Shown in pieces: positions 3,031 through 17,790 of a stretch of DNA of 39,749 nucleotides. This DNA is from an uncultured Verrucomicrobiota bacterium (GTDB lineage: Bacteria > Verrucomicrobiota > Verrucomicrobiia > Limisphaerales > CAIQOK01). Within the stretch, counting starts at the first letter, position 1. Every line of letters starts with the position of its first letter. The stretch lies in assembly GCA_903873415.1 (NCBI GenBank), contig CAIQOK010000160.1:1-39749 (forward strand), written 5' to 3'. A program made the position numbers and the translations under genes. The notes below the pieces were generated by a model that saw only the letters and a program-made list of their open reading frames with translations, was not told the origin of the DNA and searched no databases.

Positions 3031-3061
3031 ACGCGCCCGGAATCGGGCGCGTCTTTTTTTT
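3031..3061 (+). terminator. strong intrinsic terminator
   Basis: A perfect 9-bp stem, ACGCGCCCG (3031-3039) with CGGGCGCGT (3044-3052), encloses the tetraloop GAAT and is followed by C and eight T (3054-3061). It is a textbook Rho-independent terminator for plus-strand transcription. It isolates the downstream metal locus from the 2488-3021 transcript. Confidence 0.9.
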
Positions 3062-3131
3062 GAGGGCTTTCCGCCATGATGGCGTATTAAGAGTGGAGCA
3101 ACGAAATGTTGCCACCAGAGAAAGCCAAATC

Positions 3132-3338
3132 ATGCAGCCCATGAATACAATTCTTTTCCCAGCCGTTTTGGCCGTGCCATCCACGGTGCAAGCGAGCATT
3201 CTCCGATCCGTCTCGGCCGCCGGAGAGAGCCTTGTCTCGACCACTGCCGGTCCTGATGACGAGATTGCGGCCTCGCCGCGGTTGAGGCAGCAGATGAGCG
3301 AGCGGGCATTCCGATTCCAAGTGGTGCCGATAAAGTAG
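3132..3338 (+). CDS. small hypothetical protein with possible signal peptide
   Basis: A 68-codon ORF starting at ATG 3132, with a second ATG at 3141. The N-terminus (MNTILFPAVLAVPSTVQAS) has a short hydrophobic core and small residues that could serve as a signal peptide, although no basic n-region is present. The rest is unremarkable and polar. It lies directly upstream of the sigma cassette on the same strand. There is no Shine-Dalgarno and no recognised family. It could be noise; only expression or conservation would settle it. Confidence 0.25.
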   Translation: MQPMNTILFPAVLAVPSTVQASILRSVSAAGESLVSTTAGPDDEIAASPRLRQQMSERAFRFQVVPIK

Positions 3339-3409: not shown

Positions 3410-3748
3410 ATGAAACCCATAGAGCCATCCAAAAACAGTTTTCCGCTGCAACCGCTGCTGCGTGCCTGGCAAGTGAACTCAACCCTGCCCCCGCGCTTTG
3501 AGGAACAAGTGTGGCTGCGCATCGCGCAGCAGGAGGCTTTGCCGGTTCAGCCGCTGCGTCGTTTTTGGGAGTGGCTGGTGGCTGGTTGCGCGCGCCCGTC
3601 CTTCACCTTCGCTTACGCCACGGTTTTGCTGGCTGCCGGACTGGCCGGCGGACTTTGGCACGCCCGCCTTGAGACCACCCGTGTCACAGCGACGCTGGGG
3701 GCGCTCTACGTGCGCGCTGTGAACCCCTATTCCATTGAGGGGCGCTAA
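3410..3748 (+). CDS. small single-pass membrane protein, putative anti-sigma factor (CnrY-like position)
   Basis: A 112-residue protein with a hydrophilic N-terminal part of about 60 residues, one transmembrane helix at about residues 66-84 (AYATVLLAAGLAGGLW), and a short C-terminal tail expected in the periplasm. This is the layout of minimal anti-sigma factors such as CnrY, whose cytoplasmic N-terminus clamps an ECF sigma. I see no direct sequence match to CnrY, so the assignment rests on topology and position. The gene is first in the tight run anti-sigma / sensor / ECF sigma, with 3 bases between it and the next start. The N-terminal segment PRFEEQVWLRIAQQEA resembles the amphipathic helix found in many verrucomicrobial anti-sigma-like ORFs. 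Start ATG, no Shine-Dalgarno. Confidence 0.7.
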   Translation: MKPIEPSKNSFPLQPLLRAWQVNSTLPPRFEEQVWLRIAQQEALPVQPLRRFWEWLVAGCARPSFTFAYATVLLAAGLAGGLWHARLETTRVTATLGALYVRAVNPYSIEGR

Positions 3749-3751
3749 GGC

Positions 3752-4246
3752 ATGAAGCGCGCGGCATTCATTATTCCGGGGGGGGTTGCACTGGCAGCGC
3801 TTGCTTGGTGGGTGAGTTATTTTGTCGGGTCGGCACCCACCTGCTGTCTGCTGCGTGAACCGGCACCCGAGCTGGCCTGGCTGCAAAGGGAGTTTAAGGT
3901 TTCCAACCATGACCTGGTCCGGATTAAGCAGTTGCATGATGATTACGCTTCTGATTGCGCCGGGCGCTGCCGGAACATTGACGCCAAAAGCACCGTTTTG
4001 AAAGGGTTGTTGGCAGCCACAAACAGCGTGACCCCGCAAATTGAAGGCGCCCTGCGCGAAATAGCCCTCCTGCGTGTCGAGTGTCAGGTGGCGATGCTCC
4101 GGCACTTTTATGTGGTCAGCCAAACCATGCCCCCGCCTCAGGCGCATCGTTATCTTGACTGGGTGACCACCCGCACTCTGGGCGCCGGGCATTCCGCAAT
4201 GATGTCATCTCCACTACCTGCCGGAAATGAACACCCCGCCCACTGA
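3752..4246 (+). CDS. membrane-anchored periplasmic heavy-metal sensor (CnrX/CpxP-like)
   Basis: A 164-residue protein with an N-terminal membrane anchor at about residues 6-27 and an alpha-helical periplasmic domain. Potential soft-metal ligands are C31-C32 just after the anchor, H62, C69 and C73 in one helix, and C111, M115 and H118 in a later helix (segment VECQVAMLRHF). CnrX of Cupriavidus uses a similar four-helix fold with His/Glu/Met ligands to sense Ni and Co. Here the cysteines suggest a softer ion such as Cu(I), which is inference. It sits between the putative anti-sigma gene and the ECF sigma gene and overlaps the latter by 20 bases, so translation is probably coupled. Presumed role: on metal binding it relieves the anti-sigma protein's hold on the sigma factor. 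Confidence 0.75.
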   Translation: MKRAAFIIPGGVALAALAWWVSYFVGSAPTCCLLREPAPELAWLQREFKVSNHDLVRIKQLHDDYASDCAGRCRNIDAKSTVLKGLLAATNSVTPQIEGALREIALLRVECQVAMLRHFYVVSQTMPPPQAHRYLDWVTTRTLGAGHSAMMSSPLPAGNEHPAH

Positions 4247-4817
4247 GGCCGAGGACCGGCAGGATTTGGCGCGTTTGTGTGCCGGGCAGGACTCGGCGCT
4301 GGCGGCGTTGATGCAGCGCCATGGGGAAAGGCTTTTTCATTACTTCATCCGCCTGTTGCAAGACGAGGCTGAGGCGGCCGATCTGACCCAGGAAACTTTT
4401 GCGCGGGTTTATCTCCATCGCGCCCGCTATCAGCCCCGGCACAAATTTTCCACCTGGCTCTATACGATCGCCACCAATCTGGCCCGTGACAGGCAACGGT
4501 GGCTGGCCCGGCACCCCCAGATTTCCATTCATGCCTGCAGGGGCGGTGAGAGGGATTGGGCGGACCGGTTGCCCGCTTTTGGCAACACCCCGGCGGAACA
4601 TGTTGAGGCGCAGGAACGGGCGGATGCAGTGCGCCGGGCCTTGGCGGAATTGCCCGAGGATCTTCGAGTGCCCCTCGTGCTGGTTGAATATGAAGAGCAA
4701 TCCCATGCGGAGATCGCCGCCGTGATGGACTGTTCGGCCAAGGCCGTGGAGATGCGGATTTACCGGGCGCGCCAGTTTTTGCGTGACCGCCTGGTTTTTC
4801 TGCTGGCGGAGAAATGA
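4227..4817 (+). CDS. ECF-type RNA polymerase sigma factor (CnrH-like role)
   Basis: A 196-residue sigma70-family protein with only regions 2 and 4, as in extracytoplasmic-function sigma factors. Region 2 spans about residues 20-95. It has the core-binding segment DEAEAADLTQETFARVY and the DNA-melting/-10-reading segment HKFSTWLYTIATNLARDRQR. Region 4 spans about residues 130-190. It contains LPEDLRVPLVLVEYEEQSHAEIAAVM followed by the recognition helix SAKAVEMRIYRARQFLRD. A variable linker joins them. The gene overlaps the sensor gene and precedes the metal-binding and efflux genes, so it most likely directs transcription of this locus under control of the two upstream proteins. Start ATG 4227. 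Confidence 0.93.
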   Translation: MNTPPTEAEDRQDLARLCAGQDSALAALMQRHGERLFHYFIRLLQDEAEAADLTQETFARVYLHRARYQPRHKFSTWLYTIATNLARDRQRWLARHPQISIHACRGGERDWADRLPAFGNTPAEHVEAQERADAVRRALAELPEDLRVPLVLVEYEEQSHAEIAAVMDCSAKAVEMRIYRARQFLRDRLVFLLAEK

Positions 4818-4928
4818 AAAACGCCGGCACTCCCGGCAGCTCCCGTTTCGAAATAAAAAGTTAGAGTGGAATTCGCCGGCGCGGCGTATTATCACATGTG
4901 GCATAGGGTTGTGCCCGAAAAACTTAAT

Positions 4929-5207
4929 ATGAACATGAAAACAAACAATATTCTACGATCCCTTCTCCTGACCTTGCCAATCATCACCGCAACACTCCCC
5001 GTCGCGGCCGTGGATGCCCCCAAACCGGATAAGCTCACCACCTGTCCCGTGTCCGGTGAAAAGTTGGGGGAAATGGGGAAGCCGCACGTTTTTGTCTATA
5101 AAGGCCAGGAAGTTCAACTCTGCTGCAAGGATTGCAAGGGGAAATTTGACAAGGATCCGGCACCCTACATCCGCAAGATAGAAGCCGCCAGCAAGGCCAA
5201 AAAATAA
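4929..5207 (+). CDS. periplasmic YHS/TRASH-like metal-binding protein
   Basis: A 92-residue exported protein. Residues 1-28 form a clear signal peptide: basic n-region MNMKTNNILR, a leucine-rich core, and an A-V-A type cleavage region. The mature part has the cysteine pattern CPVSGEKLG near residue 40 and QLCCKDCKGKF near residue 69. The spacing and flanking residues are those of YHS/TRASH-like metal-binding domains, which often bind copper. A short lysine-rich tail follows. I chose ATG 4929 rather than an upstream in-frame start because only this one yields a proper signal peptide. It lies 110 bases after the sigma gene and before the efflux genes. Likely role: periplasmic metal carrier or buffer feeding the pump, analogous in place to CusF but not homologous in sequence. 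Confidence 0.85.
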   Translation: MNMKTNNILRSLLLTLPIITATLPVAAVDAPKPDKLTTCPVSGEKLGEMGKPHVFVYKGQEVQLCCKDCKGKFDKDPAPYIRKIEAASKAKK

Positions 5208-5322: not shown

Positions 5323-5574
5323 ATCCCTAGGAGCGGTGTAGATTCGACGTTGAACCGGAGTTTGTTGTGACGTTTTTCTGGTTCCATAAACGGGACTGGA
5401 CGGGGGTCTTAAACCAAGGAGAGGTCGGCATCCGGGCGGATTCAGTGAGGGATGTTGCATTCCCATTTCGGACGGACGCCCCTCTTTTTCGCAAGGCTTG
5501 GCGCGAGTGCCCGTGTGTGAATCCATGGTTTGGTTGCCGGGTTTGTGGGGCGAAGCGGCGGATTATTGATTACT

Positions 5575-6975
5575 GTGACTCAGTGTATTCTAAAAAAACG
5601 GTGGATCTTCCGGCTCGTTGGCGTCGCGGCCGTGGTCGCGGTTGTTCTGTCCGGATGCACGGGGTTTCCCACGCGTCTGGAGAGCGGGGCTCAGATGGAC
5701 CGGGCCTGGGTGCAAATGCGCTATCGTCCTGAGGGGGCGCGTCCGACCTTGCCGGCACTTTCAGGCCAGTCGTCGCTGGCGGAATACCTGCGCCACGCGA
5801 TGCTGGCCCATCCGCAAGTGGAGGCGGCGTATTTTGACTGGTATGCCTCGGTGGAGAATATCACCGTGGCCCGCTCGCTCCCGGATCCGCAGCTGACCTT
5901 TCAGGCGGACATTATGGATGTTGTCACGTCGGTGATGCCCGGTTTGACGCAAAGTTTTCCTGGACCAGGGAAACTGCGGGCGGCGGGGAACGCATCGGCG
6001 GAGGCGGGGCGTGGAAAGTATTTTGCGTTTGAAACCGCGGTGATGCAAAGCGCTTTCGCCCTCAAAAAAAGTTATTATCGACTTTGGTTTCTCGACGAAA
6101 AAATCCGGGTGGATGGCGAGATGCTGCAGCTGCTTGCCGAGCTGGAAAGAATTGCGCGTTCAAAAAACGAATCTGGCCAAGCCACCCTGCAGGACGTTTA
6201 TCGCGCCCAAATCGAGGAAGACCGGCTCGCAACCGAAGTCGCGGGGCTTGAGGATTCACGCTCCCTGTTGAGGGCCGAATTCAAAGCCGCCCTGGGTCTG
6301 ACTCGCGAGCAGCCCGATCCCCCCATGCCTGAGCGGTTTGAGGCCACCACCCTGGATTTAACGCCGGAACAAGTTCTCGACTCCGCGTTCGCGCGCAATC
6401 CCCAGCTCAAGGCGATGGCCGCCGAAGTGAGGTCGGCCGAGGCGTTGCTGCAACTGGCTTACCGGGCCAAGGTGCCTGACACCAGTCTGGGGCTGATGGC
6501 TGACGCGAAAATGGCGCCGATACTTTACCGTCCGCTGGCCGGCCTGACGCTGCCCATTTGGCGGGACAAATTAGCCGCCCAGATTGCTGCGGCCCAGGCC
6601 AATAAGTTCGCCGCCCAGGCACGAATGTCGCTCGAACAGATCAACCTCATCTTGGTTTTCGCGGAGAAAAGTTTCGATGGCCGGGAGAATTCCCGAACCC
6701 TTGCGCTCCTCAGGGAAAAGCTCCTACCCAAGGCGCGCCAGTCTCTGGAGTTGGCTCGATCCGCTTACCTGTCTGGCAAAACCGATTTTTTCAACCTGAT
6801 CGACGCCGAGCGCACCCTCTTGGATTTCCGTCTTTCGGAAATCAGCGCGCGGAGTGAACGGGAGATGATCCTCTCGGAACTCGGGCTGCTCATCGCCGGC
6901 GTTCCTCCTGAAACCGCGCCGCTCCTTGACTCCCGATCCAGTCCGCAACCGGCCCCCGGCCGCTCAACACCATGA
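5575..6975 (+). CDS. outer-membrane efflux lipoprotein (TolC/CusC/CzcC family)
   Basis: Outer-membrane channel subunit of the tripartite metal pump. The N-terminus has a basic segment (KKRWIFR), a hydrophobic core and a lipobox ending VVLSGC, so the mature protein is probably lipid-anchored. The rest shows the doubled outer-membrane efflux protein pattern: long amphipathic, alanine-rich helices with a repeat such as EYLRHAMLAHPQVEAA in the first half and EQVLDSAFARNPQLKAMAAEV in the second. Late in the protein the segment SLELARSAYLSGKTDFFNLIDAERTLLDFRL is a family hallmark. I prefer GTG 5575; TTG 5530 is in frame but adds 15 residues before the basic n-region. The stop overlaps the next start as ATGA, so the two genes are translationally coupled. 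Confidence 0.9.
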   Translation: MTQCILKKRWIFRLVGVAAVVAVVLSGCTGFPTRLESGAQMDRAWVQMRYRPEGARPTLPALSGQSSLAEYLRHAMLAHPQVEAAYFDWYASVENITVARSLPDPQLTFQADIMDVVTSVMPGLTQSFPGPGKLRAAGNASAEAGRGKYFAFETAVMQSAFALKKSYYRLWFLDEKIRVDGEMLQLLAELERIARSKNESGQATLQDVYRAQIEEDRLATEVAGLEDSRSLLRAEFKAALGLTREQPDPPMPERFEATTLDLTPEQVLDSAFARNPQLKAMAAEVRSAEALLQLAYRAKVPDTSLGLMADAKMAPILYRPLAGLTLPIWRDKLAAQIAAAQANKFAAQARMSLEQINLILVFAEKSFDGRENSRTLALLREKLLPKARQSLELARSAYLSGKTDFFNLIDAERTLLDFRLSEISARSEREMILSELGLLIAGVPPETAPLLDSRSSPQPAPGRSTP

Positions 6976-8693
6976 TGCCAATTCACCGACTTCTCTCTCT
7001 CCTGTTTCTGCTTGTTCTCGTTTTGGGATGCGTGTCGTGCGGCCGGGATCCGGCAGCGCCGGCAGTCCGGACTCTTTACACTTGCGGCATGCACCCGCAG
7101 ATCGTGCAGGATCATCCGGGCAATTGCCCGGTTTGCGGCATGAAACTCACACCGGTCCGGAAGCCGGCGGACGCCGCCGCGCCTTCCTCCGGCATCGTGA
7201 TCGATCCGGCCACCATTCAAACGATGGGCCTGCGCACAGGCACCGTCACACGGGGACCGCTGCGCCGCACCATCCGCACGGTGGCGAATGTGGACTATGA
7301 CGAAACCGGTTTGGCGGACGTCACCACCAAATACAAAGGATGGATCGAGAAGCTTTATGTCGATGCCACCGGGGCTTTGGTCAATCCGGGCGATCCGCTG
7401 TTTTCAATCTATTCGCCGGAGCTTTACAGCGCGCAAACCGAATATCTCGCGGCCCTGGCCGCCAGTTCCAATTCCCCGGGCGGTTACGGCCGCAGCCTGC
7501 TCGATAGCGCCCGGACCAAGCTGCGGTTCTACGACATCTCCGATGCGCAGATCCGGGAACTGGACACCGCGCATGAGCCGAAAAAGTCGCTGACGATCAG
7601 CGCGCCCATCAGCGGATTCGTCACCGAAAAAATGGTGGTTTCGGGGCAGATGGTGGAGGCGGGAATGAAATTGTACCGGCTTGCGGAGCTGGGTATCGTA
7701 TGGGTCTACGCGCAGATTTACGAACAGGATCTGGCGTCGGTCCAGCTCGGTCAGGAGGCGGTGATGATTCTGTCTTATTTGCCGGACCGAAAATTCCGGG
7801 GTCGTGTGACCTATGTTTACCCGACGGTGGACGATAAAACCCGCACCGCGCGGGTGCGGATGGAGTTTCACAATCCGGGCTATTTCCTCAAGCCGGGAAT
7901 GTTCGCGACGGTGGAACTGGAGTGCAACTTGGAGCCGTCGGTTCTTCTGGTGCCGGATTCGTCAGTGCTGCGCAGCGGCCACAAAAACACCGTCTTCGTC
8001 GCCCTGCCGGGCGGCAGGTTTGAGGCACGGACCGTGTCGCTCGGATTGCAGGCTCAGGATTCCATGGACCAGGTGCTGGCGGGTTTGAGCGAAGGCGAAA
8101 GAATTGTCACCTCCGGTCAGTTCCTGCTCGATTCGGAAAGCCAGCTGCGCGAGGCCATTGATAAGATGTCAGGATCCGCCCAAACCACGCCGGGGCAAAC
8201 GTCCGCAGCCGTCCAATCACTTGCCTTGTCCGAAGGGCGCGCCGAGCAGGTTGTCTGGGTTTGTCCCATGCCTGAGCATGTTTCCATCCAATATGATCAT
8301 CCCGGCAAATGCCCCATTTGCGCGATGACGTTGGTGCCGGTGCCTAAAAGCACGCTCGCCAAAATCAGCCCCGGCGGCCGTTTGCTTTACCACACCTGCC
8401 CGATGCCCGATCACGGCGACGTGCATGCGGACAAGCCCGGCAAATGCCCAAAGTGCGGCATGACCCTCATTCCCGTCATGAGCGCGCCGGCTTTTGCGAC
8501 CAACACACCGGGTTTGGCCGTACCGGAGAAACTGCCGCCGCTCTTCGCCTGCCCCATGCACCTTGAAATCGTCTCGGACAAGCCCGGCCAATGTCCCCGA
8601 TGCGCCATGGAACTGGTGGCAACCGGCTCGTTGCCCGACGGGAAAAAGGCCGTGGAAAACTGGCTCAAGCGCCGCGCCCCCGGCCAACCCTGA
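6972..8693 (+). CDS. RND efflux periplasmic adaptor (CusB-like) with four heavy-metal-binding modules
   Basis: Membrane-fusion subunit that links the inner-membrane pump to the outer-membrane channel. It has a lipoprotein-type signal (lipobox LVLGC, C20). A heavy-metal-binding module with the C-x-M-H...CPVCGM pattern starts at C38. The core adaptor lies at about residues 70-390, with beta-barrel and lipoyl/hairpin segments such as VSGQMVEAGMKLYRLAEL and FLKPGMFATVEL. Three further modules lie in the C-terminus starting at C431, C476 and C527, each with CPM(P/H)...KCP.C.MTL-type spacing. Most CusB proteins have none or one such module, so at 573 residues this one is long. The modules probably capture Cu(I)/Ag(I) and hand it to the pump, which is inference. 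Start ATG overlaps the upstream stop. The pump gene follows after 6 bases. Confidence 0.95.
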   Translation: MMPIHRLLSLLFLLVLVLGCVSCGRDPAAPAVRTLYTCGMHPQIVQDHPGNCPVCGMKLTPVRKPADAAAPSSGIVIDPATIQTMGLRTGTVTRGPLRRTIRTVANVDYDETGLADVTTKYKGWIEKLYVDATGALVNPGDPLFSIYSPELYSAQTEYLAALAASSNSPGGYGRSLLDSARTKLRFYDISDAQIRELDTAHEPKKSLTISAPISGFVTEKMVVSGQMVEAGMKLYRLAELGIVWVYAQIYEQDLASVQLGQEAVMILSYLPDRKFRGRVTYVYPTVDDKTRTARVRMEFHNPGYFLKPGMFATVELECNLEPSVLLVPDSSVLRSGHKNTVFVALPGGRFEARTVSLGLQAQDSMDQVLAGLSEGERIVTSGQFLLDSESQLREAIDKMSGSAQTTPGQTSAAVQSLALSEGRAEQVVWVCPMPEHVSIQYDHPGKCPICAMTLVPVPKSTLAKISPGGRLLYHTCPMPDHGDVHADKPGKCPKCGMTLIPVMSAPAFATNTPGLAVPEKLPPLFACPMHLEIVSDKPGQCPRCAMELVATGSLPDGKKAVENWLKRRAPGQP

Positions 8694-8699
8694 TCTCCC

Positions 8700-11600
8700 A
8701 TGCTCCAACGCGTCATCGATTTTTCGCTGAAGAACAAGTTTATAGTCCTGCTGATCACTGGGGCACTGCTGCTTGGCGGAATCTACGCGGTCCGGCACAT
8801 TCCTCTGGACGCGATCCCCGACCTGTCGGACACCCAGGTCATTATCTATACGCAGTGGGAGGGGCAGGCACCCAATCTTGTGGAGGACCAGGTTACCTAT
8901 GCCATTACCACCAAAATGCTCTCCGTCCCGCGGCAGAAGGCGGTGCGGGGCTATTCGTTTTACGGCTTCTCGTTTGTGTATGTGATTTTCGAAGACGGCA
9001 CCGATCCTTACTGGGCCCGGAGCCGGGTGTTGGAATACCTGAGCAGCATCGGTGGCCAGCTGCCCAAAGGGGTGACGCCCTCATTGGGGCCTGATGCGAC
9101 CGGCGTTGGCTGGGCTTTCATGTACTCATTGAACTCCACCAACCGTGATCTGGCCGAGCTGCGATCCATGCAGGATTGGTATTTGAAATACCAGCTCACC
9201 GCCGTCGAAGGCGTGTCGGAAATCGCATCGGTCGGCGGCTTCGTCAAACAATACCAGGTCACCGTGGATCCCTCAAAACTGCGCGCCTACAGCTTGGCAC
9301 TCAAGGACGTCCGCATGGCCATCGAGCGCAGCAACGGGGAAGTCGGCGGCCGTTCCCTAGAACTTTCCGAGCGCGAATTCATAGTCCGGGTCAAAGGCTA
9401 TGTGAAGAATCTGGAGGACCTGCGCAAAGTCGCCGTCGGTCTGGGCGCTAATGGCGTGCCGGTTCTGTTGCGCGATGTCGCCCATGTCCAGTTCGGTTCC
9501 GACATGCGGCGCGGCATCGCCGAGCAGAACGGGGATGGCGAAACTGTCGGCGGCGTGGTTGTCGTCCGTTACGGCGCCAACGCCCGCGAAGTCATCGGCA
9601 ACGTGAAGCGGAGGCTGGATGAAGCGATGAAAGCGCTGCCGGCCGATGTGAGCTGCACCGTGGTTTATGACCGCACCGGACTCATCGACCGCGCGGTCAG
9701 GACGCTGGAGGAAAAATTACTCGAGGAAAGCCTCGTGGTCGCCTTGGTGTGCCTCGCTTTCCTGCTCCACCTCCGCAGCGCCCTGGTCGCCATCCTCATT
9801 TTGCCCATCGCCGTGCTTATCGCCGTCCTCATCATGTTCTGCCAGGGCATCAGCTCCAACATCATGTCGCTCGGCGGCATCGCCATTGCCATTGGCGCGA
9901 TGGTCGATGCGGTGATCATCATGATCGAGAATGCGCACAAGCATCTGGAGCGCGATCAGGGCAGAAAGCCCCACTGGGAAATCATCCGTGCCGCAGCCGT
10001 CGAGGTGGGGCCGACTCTGTTCTACTCGCTGCTTGTCATCACGGTGTCGTTCGTGCCGGTGTTCACCTTGCAGGCTCAGGAAGGGCGCATGTTCAAACCC
10101 CTTGCATTTACCAAGACCTACTCGATGGCGGCGGCGGCCCTCCTGTCCATTACCCTGGCCCCCATCCTGATGGGATGGTTTATCCGCGGAAAGATCCCCT
10201 CTGAGGAAAAAAACCCGATCAACCGCCTGTTGGTCTGGATTTATCATCCGATGATTGATTTTGTCATCCGGTGGCGCTGGGCGGTTGTGTTCACTGCGGC
10301 ATTGGTGGTGGTCTGGGTTTTCCTACCGTGGAACGCGTTGGTGAGAGGCTTGATGCCCGAGGGGCGGGCGCGGGATTACGCGCTCAAAGCCGGCGCGGTT
10401 TTCCCTTATCAAAACATCGGTTCCGAATTCATGCCCCCGCTCTACGAAGGCGATCTGCTCTACATGCCGACGACTTTCCCCGGCATCTCGGTGACCAAGG
10501 CGCGCCAGATCATCCAGATCACCGACCGATTGATCAAGGGTTTCCCGGAGGTGAGGACCGTGTTTGGCAAGGTGGGGAGGGCGGAGACTGCCACCGATCC
10601 GGCGCCGATGGACATGATCGAAACGACGATCCAGCTGCAACCGGAGGAGCAGTGGCCGCTGGTGGATATTCTGGATGAAGCCGGCAAGGTCGTCGCGCAT
10701 CGCCGCCGCACCTCGGAGGAACTGGCTGACGCCATGAACAATGCCGTGCAAATTCCCGGACTTAACAATGCTTGGACCATGCCGATCAAGACGCGTATCG
10801 ACATGCTGTCCACCGGCATCAAAACGCTCGTGGGCATCAAGGTGGCGGGACCTGATTTGCAGGAGCTGGAACGGATCGGGATTGAAATTGAGTCGGTAAT
10901 CCGCCGGGTTCCCGGGACGGCCAGCGCCTACGCCGAGCGGGTGATGGGCGGCCGGTTTATTGAGTTTGAAATTGATCGCGATGCCATCGCCCGTTACGGA
11001 CTGACGCTGGGCGATGTGCAGGATGTTTTGTCGGTTGCGCTGGGAGGGATGGCGTTGACGACGACGGTGGAAGGTCTGCAACGCTATACGATTAGTCTGC
11101 GATATGACCGTGATTTTCGTTCGGACCTGCGGGCTTTGCGCGAGGATATCATGGTGCCCACGGCGGGCGGGGCCCAGGTGCCGCTGGGGCAGTTGGCCTC
11201 CTTAAAAATTGTCGACGGGCCGATGGGGATCAAAAGCGAGGGCGCGGTGCCCAATGCGTGGATTTATGTCGACCTGCGCGGGGTGGATGTGGGCACCTAT
11301 GTTGAGATGGCTCGGCACGCCGTGAATGAAGCGGTGGCTAATGATCAGGTCCACCTGCCGGCCGGCTACAACCTTTTCTGGAGCGGGCAGTATGAATACA
11401 TGCTCCGCGCCCGCCAACGGCTGCTTGTCGTGGTGCCTCTGACTCTGCTGATCATCCTGCTTATCATCTATCTCAATACCAAATCCCTGGTTAAAACGGC
11501 CATCGTGATGTTGGCGGTGCCGTTTTCTTTGGTGGGTGCTTTTTGGGTCGTTTATCTGCTCGGTTACAATCTCAGCGTCGCCGTGTGGGTGGGCATTATC

Positions 11601-11972
11601 GCATTGGCGGGACTCGATGCGGAAACCGGGGTGGTCATGCTGCTTTATCTGGATCTCGCTTTTGAGGAGTGGAGGCAAAGTGGAAAGCTGCGATCTGTCA
11701 GCGACCTGCGTGACGCCATTTACCATGGGGCGGTGAAACGGGTCCGCCCCAAAGCAATGACCGCCTGCGTGATCATCGCCGGCCTGGCGCCGATTCTATG
11801 GAGCCACGGGGCCGGGGCGGATGTGATGAAACGCATCGCCACGCCGATGATTGGCGGTGTGGTGACTTCCACGGTGATGGAACTGCTGGTCTATCCGGCC
11901 ATTTTTTATCTCTGGCGCTCTCGTAATCTGGCCCCGGCACCCATTTTTCACTTGAGGAATCCGGAAAAGTAG
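8700..11972 (+). CDS. cusA: heavy-metal RND efflux pump, CusA/CzcA family (probably Cu/Ag)
   Basis: Inner-membrane proton-driven pump of 1090 residues, the usual HME-RND size being about 1045. The N-terminus, including HIPLDAIPDLSDTQVI near residue 38-53, is characteristic. The transmembrane segment with GAMVDAVIIMIENAHKHLE near residue 400-420 carries the family's charged proton-relay residue. Twelve membrane helices are expected in two blocks, and both hydrophobic blocks are visible. M589 (in GDLLYMP), M639 (in APMDMIETTIQL) and M702 (in TRIDMLSTG) align by position and context with the three methionines of E. coli CusA (M573, M623, M672) that bind Cu(I)/Ag(I). This favours copper/silver over Co/Zn/Cd. 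An insertion of about 14 residues lies between the last two. It is the last gene of the metal locus. Confidence 0.95.
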   Translation: MLQRVIDFSLKNKFIVLLITGALLLGGIYAVRHIPLDAIPDLSDTQVIIYTQWEGQAPNLVEDQVTYAITTKMLSVPRQKAVRGYSFYGFSFVYVIFEDGTDPYWARSRVLEYLSSIGGQLPKGVTPSLGPDATGVGWAFMYSLNSTNRDLAELRSMQDWYLKYQLTAVEGVSEIASVGGFVKQYQVTVDPSKLRAYSLALKDVRMAIERSNGEVGGRSLELSEREFIVRVKGYVKNLEDLRKVAVGLGANGVPVLLRDVAHVQFGSDMRRGIAEQNGDGETVGGVVVVRYGANAREVIGNVKRRLDEAMKALPADVSCTVVYDRTGLIDRAVRTLEEKLLEESLVVALVCLAFLLHLRSALVAILILPIAVLIAVLIMFCQGISSNIMSLGGIAIAIGAMVDAVIIMIENAHKHLERDQGRKPHWEIIRAAAVEVGPTLFYSLLVITVSFVPVFTLQAQEGRMFKPLAFTKTYSMAAAALLSITLAPILMGWFIRGKIPSEEKNPINRLLVWIYHPMIDFVIRWRWAVVFTAALVVVWVFLPWNALVRGLMPEGRARDYALKAGAVFPYQNIGSEFMPPLYEGDLLYMPTTFPGISVTKARQIIQITDRLIKGFPEVRTVFGKVGRAETATDPAPMDMIETTIQLQPEEQWPLVDILDEAGKVVAHRRRTSEELADAMNNAVQIPGLNNAWTMPIKTRIDMLSTGIKTLVGIKVAGPDLQELERIGIEIESVIRRVPGTASAYAERVMGGRFIEFEIDRDAIARYGLTLGDVQDVLSVALGGMALTTTVEGLQRYTISLRYDRDFRSDLRALREDIMVPTAGGAQVPLGQLASLKIVDGPMGIKSEGAVPNAWIYVDLRGVDVGTYVEMARHAVNEAVANDQVHLPAGYNLFWSGQYEYMLRARQRLLVVVPLTLLIILLIIYLNTKSLVKTAIVMLAVPFSLVGAFWVVYLLGYNLSVAVWVGIIALAGLDAETGVVMLLYLDLAFEEWRQSGKLRSVSDLRDAIYHGAVKRVRPKAMTACVIIAGLAPILWSHGAGADVMKRIATPMIGGVVTSTVMELLVYPAIFYLWRSRNLAPAPIFHLRNPEK

Positions 11973-13170: not shown

Positions 13171-16100
13171 ATGAGCATCAAATTGGCAGTGCCAAACGAT
13201 AGCGGTGAACCCCGGCTTGGGTTCCCGCCCAAACAGGGCTTGTATGATCCGCAGTTTGAGCGTGACGCCTGCGGGTTGGGCTTCGTGGTGCACATGAAGG
13301 GCGCCAAGTCCCACCAGACCGTGAGCGATGCCCTGCAGATCCTGGTCAATTTGGATCACCGGGGCGCTTGTGGTTGCGAGGCCAACACGGGCGACGGAGC
13401 GGGCATTCTGGTTCAGGTCCCCCACGACTTTCTCAGCGCCGAAGCGGAACGCTTGGGTTTCAAGCTTCCCGAGCCGGGTGGGTATGGGGTCGGGATGTTG
13501 TTTCTTCCGAAAAACCCCGCCGAGCGCGCCGCAGTTCAGGCCGAGGTTTCCAGGATCGTAGCCGCCGAGGGCCAGACCTTGTTGGGCTGGCGCGAGGTGC
13601 CCACCGACAACTCGTCACTGGGCAGGACGGCTGTGGCCGCAGAGCCGTTCATGATGCAGGTGTTCGTCGGCCGGAGCAGCGGTTTGGCCGATGAGGCGGC
13701 ATTCGAACGCAAGCTCTACGTCATCCGCAAGCTGGCGGAGCAGGCCATTCGCTACGGTGCCCAATTTCCCGGAGGCAAGTGGTTCTATGTGTCCAGCCTT
13801 TCCAGCCGCACCCTGATCTACAAGGGCATGTTGATGCCGGAGCAGGTGGGCAAATACTATCCCGACCTGTGCAATCCCGCCCTGACCACGGCCTTGGCGC
13901 TGGTTCATTCTCGATTTTCAACCAATACATTTCCGAGCTGGGACCGGGCGCATCCAAACCGTTACATCGCGCACAACGGCGAAATCAACACGCTGCGCGG
14001 CAATGTGAACTGGATGAAGGCCTCCCAGGCCAACTTCGTGTCCGATGTGTTCGGGGCCGACATCAAAAAAGTCGTGCCGGTGATCAACGAGGACAACAGT
14101 GACTCGGCCCAGTTTGACAACGTGGTGGAGCTGCTGGCGCTTTCCGGCCGGGAATTGCCCCACGCTATGATGATGATGATTCCCGAGCCGTGGGAAAATC
14201 ACGAAAGCATGAGCGCGGAGCGCCGTGCTTTTTACGAGTTTCACTCCTGTCTCATGGAGCCGTGGGACGGCCCAGCCTCGGTCGCCTTTACCGACGGCCA
14301 CCGCATCGGCGCCTGCTTGGACCGCAACGGTCTCCGTCCCTCGCGTTATTACGTCACCAAGGACGACATGGTGATCATGGCCTCCGAGGCGGGTGTTCTG
14401 CCGATCGCCCCGGAGCGGGTGCAGCTCAAGGGACGCCTTCAACCCGGCCGCATGTTTTTGGTGGACACATTGGAGGGCAGAATTGTGGCCGATGAGGAGT
14501 TGAAGCAGAAATACGCCGGGGCGCATCCCTACCGCCAGTGGTTGGATGAGCACCACGTCCTGCTGGAAGATCTGGCGGAACCCCCGCACGTCACCGAACC
14601 GGCGCACCGCAAGGTTCTGCAGTGGCAACAGGCCTTTGGCTACACCTTCGAAGATCTGCGCTTCATCGTGGGTCCGATGGCTAATGACGGCGTGCAACCG
14701 CTCGGGTCCATGGGCACTGACACCCCGCTGGCGGTTCTCTCGAACAAGCCTCAGTTGCTCTATAACTATTTCAAGCAGCTCTTCGCTCAGGTCACCAATC
14801 CCCCGATCGACCCGATCCGCGAGGAGATTGTCACCTCCACCGAGACGATGGTGGGGGCCCGGGGTGGGCTGCTCAAGCCGACGGCTGAAAGCTGCGCTCT
14901 GATCAAGCTGGAGCATCCGCTTCTGACCAACGAGCAGCTGGAAAAGCTGCGTCATGTGAGCCGGGCGGGATTCCGTGCGGAAACACTCCCCATTCTCTTC
15001 AAGGCTGCGGACCGGAACGGCGGTTTGGAGGTGGCGCTCAACGGACTTTTCGCCTCCGCCGACCGCGCCATCCAGAACGGGGTCACGATTTTGATTCTCT
15101 CCGACCGTGGCGTTTCGCCGGAGCAGGCACCCATCCCCGCCCTGCTTGCGGTTGCCGGTCTGCACCATCATTTGATCCGGGCCGGGACCCGCTCCCGCGT
15201 CGGACTGGTCCTCGAGTCTGGCGAGCCCCGCGAGGTGCATCATTTCGCACTGCTTATCGGCTACGGCTGCAGCGCTATCAATCCGTATCTCGCGTATGAC
15301 ACCATCGACGACCTGATTGCTGAGAAGCTGCTGTTGAACACCGACCACAAGACGGCGGTGAAGAAGTACATCAAAGCGGCCATCAAGGGCGTGGTCAAGA
15401 CCATGGCCAAGATGGGGATTTCGACGGTGCAGAGCTACCGAGGTGCGCAGATTTTCGAGGCAATCGGTCTGAGTAGCGAGGTGGTGGACCGTTATTTCAC
15501 ATGGACCCCCAGCCGGATTCAAGGCGTGGGTTTGGACGTGATTGCGCAGGAGGTGCTCAAGCGCCATGCCCATGCATTTCCGGACCGTGAAATCAACGGC
15601 CAACTTGATTCGGGCGGCCAGTATCAATGGCGAGACAACGGTGAATATCACCTCTTCAATCCGCAGACGATCCACAAGCTGCAGCTGGCCTGCCGGCTCA
15701 ACAGCGACAAAATCTACCGTGAATATGCCGAGCTGATCAACAATCAGGCCAAGCATCTTTGCACTCTCCGCGGACTGCTGGAGTTCAATTGGGATGAAAA
15801 CGCCATTCCCATCGACGAGGTGGAGCCGGTTGAGTCCATTGTGAAGCGTTTCAAGACTGGGGCGATGAGCTACGGTTCCATTTCGCAGGAGGCGCACGAG
15901 ACGTTGGCCGTGGCGATGAACCGTCTGGGCGGCAAGTCCAACACCGGCGAGGGCGGTGAGGATCCCGAGCGTTACACGCTGATGCCGAATGGTGATTCCA
16001 AGAATTCCGCGATCAAACAGGTCGCCAGCGGCCGGTTCGGCGTGACCAGCCACTATCTGGTTAATGCCCGCGAATTGCAGATTAAGATGTCCCAAGGGGC

Positions 16101-17790
16101 CAAGCCCGGCGAGGGCGGCGAATTGCCCGGCAAGAAGGTTTATCCCTGGGTGGCCAAGACCCGTGGCACCACCGCCGGCGTCGGACTTATTTCCCCGCCC
16201 CCCCATCACGACATTTATTCCATCGAGGATTTGTCGGAGCTGATCCATGATCTCAAGAATTCCAACCGCGCTGCCAGGATCAGCGTGAAGCTGGTGGCCG
16301 AGGTGGGTGTTGGAACCGTCGCGGCCGGCGTGGCCAAGGCCCATGCCGATGTTGTGCTTATATCCGGTCATGATGGCGGGACCGGGGCGTCGCCGATTTC
16401 TTCCATCAAACATGCGGGCGGTCCGTGGGAGCTGGGGCTGGCCGAAGCGCACCAGACGTTGGTGCTGAATAATCTCCGCAGCCGCATCTATGTCGAGACC
16501 GACGGTCAGTTGAAGACGGGCCGCGATGTGGCGGTTGCGGCGCTGCTCGGGGCCGAGGAATTCGGCTTTGCCACGGCCCCGCTGGTGGTGATGGGCTGCA
16601 TCATGATGCGGGTTTGCCATCTCAACACCTGTCCGGTGGGTGTGGCGACCCAAGATCCGAAATTGCGCGCCCGGTTCACCGGCAGCGCGGATCATGTGGT
16701 GAATTTCATGCGTTTCATCGCCCAAGAGTTGCGAGAGATCATGGCTAAACTCGGGTTCCGCAAACTTGAGGACATGGTCGGGCGCACCGACAAGCTTGTT
16801 CCATGGAAGGCCATTGAGCATTGGAAAGCCAGCGGGCTGGATCTCACACCGATTCTGCACCAGCCGCAGGTCGGACCGGAGGTGGGCCGTTTTCGACAGC
16901 AGGCTCAGGACCACGGGCTGGAGAAATCCTTGGATGTGACCCGTTTGCTGGAAATCTGCCAGCCGGCCATTGAGCATGGCACCAAAGTGAGGGCCGAATT
17001 GCCTATCATCAATGTCAACCGGGTTGTCGGCACGATTGTGGGTAGCGAGATCACCAAGAAATACGGGCCGGAAGGCCTGCCCGAGGACACGGTGAGTTTG
17101 AAATTCCACGGCAGCGCCGGGCAGAGTCTGGGTGCCTTTATTCCCAAAGGGATGACTTTGGAGCTGGAAGGCGACGCGAACGATTATTTTGGCAAGGGCC
17201 TGAGTGGCGGCAAGTTGATTGTTTATCCTCCGAAAGCCTCCACGTTCAAGGCTGAGGAAAACATCATCATCGGCAACGTGGCCCTTTACGGGGCGACCGC
17301 CGGCGAGATTTTCGTGCGAGGCATGGCCGGCGAACGCTTTGCCGTCCGTAATTCCGGAGTCAATGCGGTGGTTGAAGGGGTCGGGGACCATGGCTGTGAA
17401 TACATGACCGGCGGGCGCGTGGTCGTGCTGGGTCGGACCGGTCGTAATTTCGCCGCCGGCATGAGCGGCGGGGTTGCGTATGTCCTCGACGAGGCGGGGG
17501 ATTTTAAGGACCGCTGCAACATGGAGCTGGTGGCGCTGGAAAAACTCACCGATCCCGGGGAGGTCGAGCAGCTCTGGAAGCTGATCCAGCGGCATCAGAC
17601 GTTCACACAGAGCGCTTTTGCCACTCGGGTTCTTCGTGACTGGTCAAACTATATCCCGAAATTTGTCAAGGTGCTCCCCCAAGACTACGCTCGTGTTCTC
17701 AAATCCCTCGAGAAGGCCCAATCACAGGGTTTAAGCGGCGAAGACGCCATTCTGGCGGCGTTCGAGGAGAACGTCAAAGGCGGTCATTGA
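13171..17790 (+). CDS. gltB: glutamate synthase, large (alpha) subunit
   Basis: Large subunit of NADPH-dependent glutamate synthase (GOGAT), which makes glutamate from glutamine and 2-oxoglutarate in ammonia assimilation. Length is 1539 residues, as expected. The class II glutamine amidotransferase domain begins at C34 in the segment [10 protein letters not shown]; this cysteine would become N-terminal after removal of the propeptide. The central and FMN-binding synthase domains follow. The segment [16 protein letters not shown] near residue 905 and the [15 protein letters not shown] loop are typical. The 3Fe-4S ligands are C1143, C1149 and C1154 (spacing C-x5-C-x4-C, ending CHLNTCPVG). The C-terminal GXGXG beta-helix domain contains repeated glycine-rich turns. 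It is followed after 40 bases by gltD, with which it forms the enzyme. Start ATG, no Shine-Dalgarno. Confidence 0.98.

Follow-up and report, generated by a model that had tools for sequence, protein, structure and literature searches.

A candidate CnrYXH-type sigma relay beside a copper-type RND pump in Verrucomicrobiota

The window, the whole stretch of 39,749 nucleotides that we analysed, is one complete contig of a 3.8 Mb genome that is 97.8% complete. A small regulatory unit and the genes of an efflux pump lie on its forward strand, where we identified the following features:

3031–3052, + strand: intrinsic-terminator-like hairpin of 9 pairs, 8 of them G-C, followed by CTTTTTTTT
3060–3089, + strand: H-type promoter 1, TTGAGGGCT-N13-GCGTATTA, 22.4 bits, before S-Y-X-H
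3132–3338, + strand: S, small exported ORF of 68 aa between the first promoter and Y
3410–3748, + strand: Y, 112 aa, single-pass, putative anti-sigma factor
3752–4246, + strand: X, 164 aa, membrane-anchored predicted metal sensor with the CnrX fold
4227–4817, + strand: H, 196 aa, ECF sigma factor (regions 2 and 4)
4862–4891, + strand: H-type promoter 2, TAGAGTGGA-N13-GCGTATTA, 16.0 bits, with 37 nt between it and the YHS gene
4929–5207, + strand: exported YHS-domain protein with a CCKDC motif, whose gene would open the pump operon; the Pfam YHS match is sub-threshold
5575–6975, + strand: C, outer-membrane efflux protein (Pfam OEP) with a GTG start; a TTG at 5530 is also in frame
6972–8693, + strand: B, CusB-type adaptor with four HMBD heavy-metal-binding repeats (Pfam)
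8700–11972, + strand: A, CusA/CzcA-family RND pump (TIGR00914) with the Met triad M589/M639/M702

The frames of Y, X and H are open, lie in order on the same strand and are coupled, with a gap of 3 bases between Y and X and an overlap of 20 bases between X and H, as in a CnrYXH-type relay. The ORF calls agree with the coordinates, gap and overlap given in the initial annotation. That annotation extended the sigma cassette to 5207, a span that has to be shortened, as 4929–5207 encodes a YHS-type protein outside the relay; upstream of Y, it had overlooked both S and the promoter at 3060–3089. Y and X each contain a single hydrophobic stretch (residues ~64–82 and ~4–25, respectively). Pfam recognizes Sigma70_r2 (3e-16) and r4_2 (3.5e-15) in H and, below the cut-off, Metal_resist PF13801 in X (E 0.0018), and the NCBIfam CusA/CzcA model scores A at 1125 bits against a cut-off of 701. 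Elsewhere in the window, a 1225-codon open frame on the minus strand (13918–17595) runs antisense to a glutamate synthase-like ORF (13171–17790) and is most likely a by-product of codon usage.

Is X a relative of CnrX, the sensor of the nickel and cobalt relay? A profile of 35 X proteins searched against the PDB gave NccX (4clv, E 1.7e-7) and CnrX (6e-5) as top matches, and hhalign matched the profile to an alignment of CnrX and its sphingomonad relatives with a prob of 97 (E 6.8e-11). When the profile was run against 1176 ORFs from six plasmid loci, the six CnrX-family genes came out on top and all the rest had E >= 1. An AF2 model of X, built from an input of two alignment rows and unreliable at its termini, reached a pLDDT of about 87 in the core. 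The best eight folds in a structure search with this model were all CnrX (Z 8.7–9.5; best superposition with an rmsd of 2.2 over 103 residues), and the best 15 Foldseek matches were all CnrX or NccX (prob 1.00). Middling Z values arise by chance in helical bundles, so the fold result was weighed jointly with the sequence result. X is thus a membrane-anchored homolog of CnrX in both sequence and fold, as expected for a member of such a relay.

The metal site of X has been altered. H42, H46, E63, H119 and M123 are invariant in the CnrX-family alignment. In the gap-free alignment with X, H42 corresponds to L41, H46 to a K/R/Q column (position 45) and M123 to V122, while E63 corresponds to H62 and H119 to H118. 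Three of the five ligand positions are lost and H119 alone is kept, so X does not carry the Ni/Co site; with H42, H46 and M123 missing and E63 replaced by His, it falls outside the Ni/Co Cnr/Ncc group. The cassette is a homologous variant that, by analogy, would work like those relays. Among 77 near-full relatives, three cysteines are near-invariant (C69 in 77/77, C73 and C111 each in 76/77), and the two histidines are also largely kept (H62 in 73/77, H118 in 72/77). All five cysteines listed in the initial annotation exist; C69, C73 and C111 are conserved, but C31 and C32 are not, and we rejected these two as members of the metal site on that ground.

In the CnrX structure, E63 and H119 converge on one metal. 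Residues of equal sum face each other in an antiparallel hairpin, and since 62 + 118 and 69 + 111 both equal 180, C69 should face C111. By this reckoning, the C69/C111 pair should lie two turns below H62/H118, with C73 one further turn down. The simplest reading of this conservation is that C69, C73 and C111 may form a three-thiolate Cu(I) site; the Cys3His2 set could also bind Zn(II) or serve as a redox switch. No relative of this Cys-type X was found in the plasmids searched. M123 of CnrX is required for signalling (PMC7689651), and its absence from X means that the coupling between X and Y must differ in detail.

Y had no match in Pfam or NCBIfam, and a search of its sequence against the PDB gave no credible match. 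Its conserved residues fall in a cytosolic stretch (L17, F30, V34, W35 and I38) and in the periplasmic tail (Y100 and P106). The hhalign match of the Y profile to CnrY is weak (prob 57). Against the 1176 ORFs, the Y of Sphingorhabdus YGSMI21 came first (E 1e-4) and CnrY itself was not found; the matched stretch reads FEEQVWLRI in the window and FDNNVWLRI in Sphingorhabdus. CnrY wraps CnrH with two helices (PMC7406223). Its position, its topology and the link to the Sphingorhabdus protein suggest that Y is an anti-sigma factor.

The region 4 match in H runs to residue 185 and the protein stops soon afterwards, at residue 196, with no Cys-rich tail; CorE-type copper sensing by H was rejected for this reason. 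In the careful sigma-factor tree, the H group joined CnrH at 76/97 (a node that was not starred); in the quick tree, H and CnrH were not grouped, and a joint clade was not rejected (AU p 0.68). S has a signal-like N-terminus, an ASPR..RQ motif and the C-terminal end FQVVPIK, and it had no match in Pfam. S-like exported ORFs precede Y in roughly 24 of 81 loci; they carry SPR/SPK motifs, often end like FQVAPLK and in some cases have tails rich in Cys, His and Met, and the family is fast-evolving. That S takes part in periplasmic copper handling is our guess.

The three methionines of the pump align with the Met triad of CusA, as in an HME-RND pump of that type, at positions where CnrA has S/A/E. 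Methionine occupies all three positions in 34 of the 39 HME pumps near cassettes and in 3 of 20 distant HME pumps elsewhere in the order (Fisher p 7e-8; 2 of the 20 control sequences did not read as pumps, and the picture is unchanged by them). The copper-type pump proposed in the initial annotation is therefore upheld, both by the triad and by the control pumps, most of which lack it. From these residues, the C-B-A pump probably exports Cu(I)/Ag(I).

The same cassette recurs in other Verrucomicrobiota. A single-sequence search found X in 48 of 337 genomes of the phylum and a profile search found it in 60 of 146 genomes of the order; Y was found in 24 of 58 genomes searched, and one scan of genome contigs gave a single relative, L063. 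Gene order was scored in about 80 fetched regions containing 79 X genes. Y lies directly upstream of X in 79/79 loci and H lies downstream of X in 73/79, directly adjacent in 69 and behind pump genes in 4. This conservation rules out chance as the cause of the order and, together with the homology and fold of X and the promoter held in common with CnrH (below), bears out the YXH plan that had been proposed. In the four loci with pump genes before H (L069, L088, L141 and L143), C-B-A come after X and before H, all in one orientation, a placement that makes a functional link between relay and pump hard to doubt. We also observed, in L146 (genome G417), an additional Y-X pair that lacks an H gene and directly adjoins a complete cassette, and a group of four loci (L080, L082, L083 and L084) in which Y lacks the first conserved Trp and X starts DDLxWL, with no pump within the fetched region.

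For linkage to efflux genes, 40 randomly chosen ECF loci from the same order's genomes served as controls. With a limit of 9.5 kb, X has an HME pump nearby in 28/62 loci of the order and in 10/16 from the wider phylum, compared with 1/40 controls (p 8e-7). Over the same distance, B was present in 31/62, 10/16 and 0/40, and a YHS gene in 23/62, 11/16 and 0/40, respectively. For about half of the cassettes, the surrounding 9.5 kb contain no pump, and contig ends account for part of these. The initial annotation had named cassettes away from efflux genes as evidence against its reading; such cassettes do occur, in about half of the loci, and several of them have promoter sites in trans.

A shared promoter emerged from the sequences upstream of 81 Y genes. 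In a gapped-word count, GAGGG-N16-CGTA occurred in 14 of them, against a shuffle maximum of 4 for any word, and a two-box matrix converged on TTGAGGGAT-N13-GCGTATTA, with a spacer of 13 in 49/49 matrix sites even with 12–14 permitted. At a threshold of >=16 bits, sites were present in 53/81 Y upstreams (the training set) compared with 0/40 control ECF upstreams, and upstream of 18/35 YHS genes, nearly all of them outside the training set. Overall, the cassette regions (about 1.28 Mb) contained 104 sites and the control sequence (about 0.69 Mb) contained 1.

The two top sites in the window are those at 3060–3089 and 4862–4891, so that, as in the Cnr system, one promoter stands before Y and another before the pump operon. 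The first is the sole zero-mismatch match to TGAGKGNT-N13-GCGTATTA in the 3.8 Mb genome; the hairpin at 3031–3052 lies directly before it and separates the unit from upstream sequence, and, by analogy with cnrYp, transcription is expected to start near 3095. The shared promoter that the initial annotation proposed to look for upstream of 3410, 4929 and 5575 was thus found before S-Y and before 4929, but not at 5575, where the best score was 6.3 bits and an own promoter for C was rejected. Lacking its own site, C is probably read through from 4929, and the YHS gene and C-B-A would then be co-transcribed. H is presumably the factor that reads this motif.

Furthermore, the motif occurs at genes unlinked to the cassette. 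It lies before a YHS gene in genome G379 and before a CusB gene with HMBD repeats in genome G472, in both cases on a contig other than that of the cassette, and elsewhere in genome G477 before a DUF3347-like protein. Its presence before unlinked YHS and CusB genes indicates that the relay can act in trans, which accounts for some, not all, of the genomes in which the pump is distant. DUF3347-like exported proteins and small exported CxxC proteins were also seen behind the motif (L069, L141, L143, L155, L252, L067 at ~9700, L151 and L167), and these are likely further members of the regulon.

The start sites of cnrYp and cnrCp have been mapped experimentally on pMOL28 (PMC9045368). The sequence upstream of the mapped start reads TTCAAGGGGGA...CCGTATAA for cnrYp and CCGAGGGGAA...CCGTATAG for cnrCp, which are the boxes of the verrucomicrobial motif set one base further apart. 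The fixed matrix gives them 3.9 and 8.2 bits; these low scores come from the extra spacer base and other differences, and the match to cnr rests on the two core boxes. Written as [GA]AGGG-N16/17-CGTA, the pattern finds both cnr promoters and, in 45 kb of pMOL28 (+ strand), a single further site. In five sphingomonad copper loci, it stands before Y in 5/5 and before copA in 4/5, and it occurs 5 times in the 693 kb control. A pattern learned from Verrucomicrobiota only thus matches mapped CnrH promoters, which amounts to its recovery across phyla.

How might such a relay work? At rest, Y, with its cytosolic N-terminus, one span and short periplasmic tail, would hold H, and X would keep Y in its inhibiting form. 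As periplasmic Cu(I) or Ag(I) increases, the metal would be bound by C69, C73 and C111, adjoining H62/H118 on the CnrX-fold hairpin, and metal-bound X would alter Y so that H is released. Free H would then read both promoters: that of S-Y-X-H, giving autoregulation, and the one that precedes the genes for the YHS protein and the CusCBA-type pump. This scheme builds on what was computed directly, namely the genes and their order, the homology and fold of X, the conserved residues, the type of the pump and the common promoter. From these, we infer the identity of the metal, the Y-H and Y-X contacts and the release of H. We consider it quite probable that Y-X-H is a transmembrane sigma relay of the CnrYXH type that has been adapted to copper. 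The fuller picture, in which X is a three-thiolate Cu(I) sensor on the CnrX fold, the promoter code has been kept from Cupriavidus to Verrucomicrobiota and S is an exported copper-handling partner of the sensor, is offered tentatively, at somewhat less than even chances.

Could the same relay respond to a different signal? X might use C69, C73, C111, H62 and H118 to sense Zn(II), Cd(II) or a different soft metal, with the copper-type pump as one target among several. Zn(II) is also commonly bound by Cys3His2 sets, CnrX binds Zn, Co and Ni according to PDB titles, and a nearby pump is missing from about half of the cassettes. We nevertheless regard this as unlikely, given that the Cu(I)/Ag(I) triad marks nearly all linked pumps and is lacking from most other HME pumps of the order, and that YHS, HMBD and DUF3347-like partners recur behind the same promoter.

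Two further readings appear much less probable. The cysteines of X could form a disulfide, such that H is freed by oxidation of the thiols, whether by oxidants or driven by copper, and not by metal coordination; the three near-invariant periplasmic cysteines include a CxxxC on one helix face that is oxidisable. The co-conservation of H62 and H118, at the positions of the CnrX ligands E63 and H119, and a neighbourhood of metal genes without redox genes make this very improbable. Least probable of all, by a small step, is that X is a periplasmic chaperone or buffer like CpxP, Spy or ZraP that lies by chance beside an ordinary ECF/anti-sigma pair. ZraP, Spy and CpxP do share the fold class and appear among the structure matches at Z 6.6–8.0, but X is membrane-anchored, its best matches by both sequence and fold are CnrX and NccX, the Y-X-H order is fixed in nearly all loci and the CnrH promoter code is common to the cassette.

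No relay of this kind has been studied better than CnrYXH, which is tied to Ni/Co. The existence of a widespread homologous version that combines a putative thiolate site with a copper-type pump suggests a general device for periplasmic metal sensing, in which evolution may have swapped the metal site and retained the promoter code. We found no description of a verrucomicrobial or copper-type CnrYXH in the open-licence literature; the parts belong to known families, and what is new, within the scope of our searches, is how they are combined, the changed site and the conservation of the promoter code. The analysis proposes a copper-efflux regulator for Verrucomicrobiota, of a type for which that literature gave no example, and it defines residues, promoters and gene sets with which the evolution of metal specificity in transmembrane sigma relays can be studied.

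Among known systems, CnrYXH-CBA(T) of Cupriavidus metallidurans pMOL28, along with NccYXH, shares the order Y-X-H-C-B-A with the window. The X proteins are homologous, there are two promoters, before Y and before the pump operon, and the -35 GAGGG/AAGGG and -10 CGTAT boxes are common to both. On the other hand, H42, H46 and M123 of CnrX are absent from the X of the window, which has C69/C73/C111 instead and His in place of E63; the pump has the CusA triad in place of the S/A/E of CnrA; the unit has the additional S and YHS genes; the promoter spacer is one base shorter; and the signal is probably Cu/Ag rather than Ni/Co.

E. coli CusCFBA is controlled by the two-component system CusRS. It has the pump family and the Met triad in common with the window and differs in its control, which in the window would be an ECF sigma relay. 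CorE of Myxococcus xanthus is a copper-dependent ECF sigma factor whose sensing relies on a Cys-rich domain at its own C-terminus and involves no anti-sigma factor (PMC3107203). H resembles it in being an ECF sigma factor tied to copper genes and differs in lacking the Cys-rich domain.

The YXH genes of sphingomonad plasmids (L105–L109; e.g., pHMP9 and pTA15-1), for which no characterisation was found in the open-licence literature, appear from their sequences to be a second copper-linked YXH type. Y, X and H stand in order with copABCD beside them, downstream, and the promoter boxes are the same as in Verrucomicrobiota, before Y and mostly before copA. Unlike the X of the window, the sphingomonad X retains the His/Glu/Met set of CnrX, and its presumed targets are a multicopper oxidase and CopB, whereas the presumed target in the window is an RND pump.
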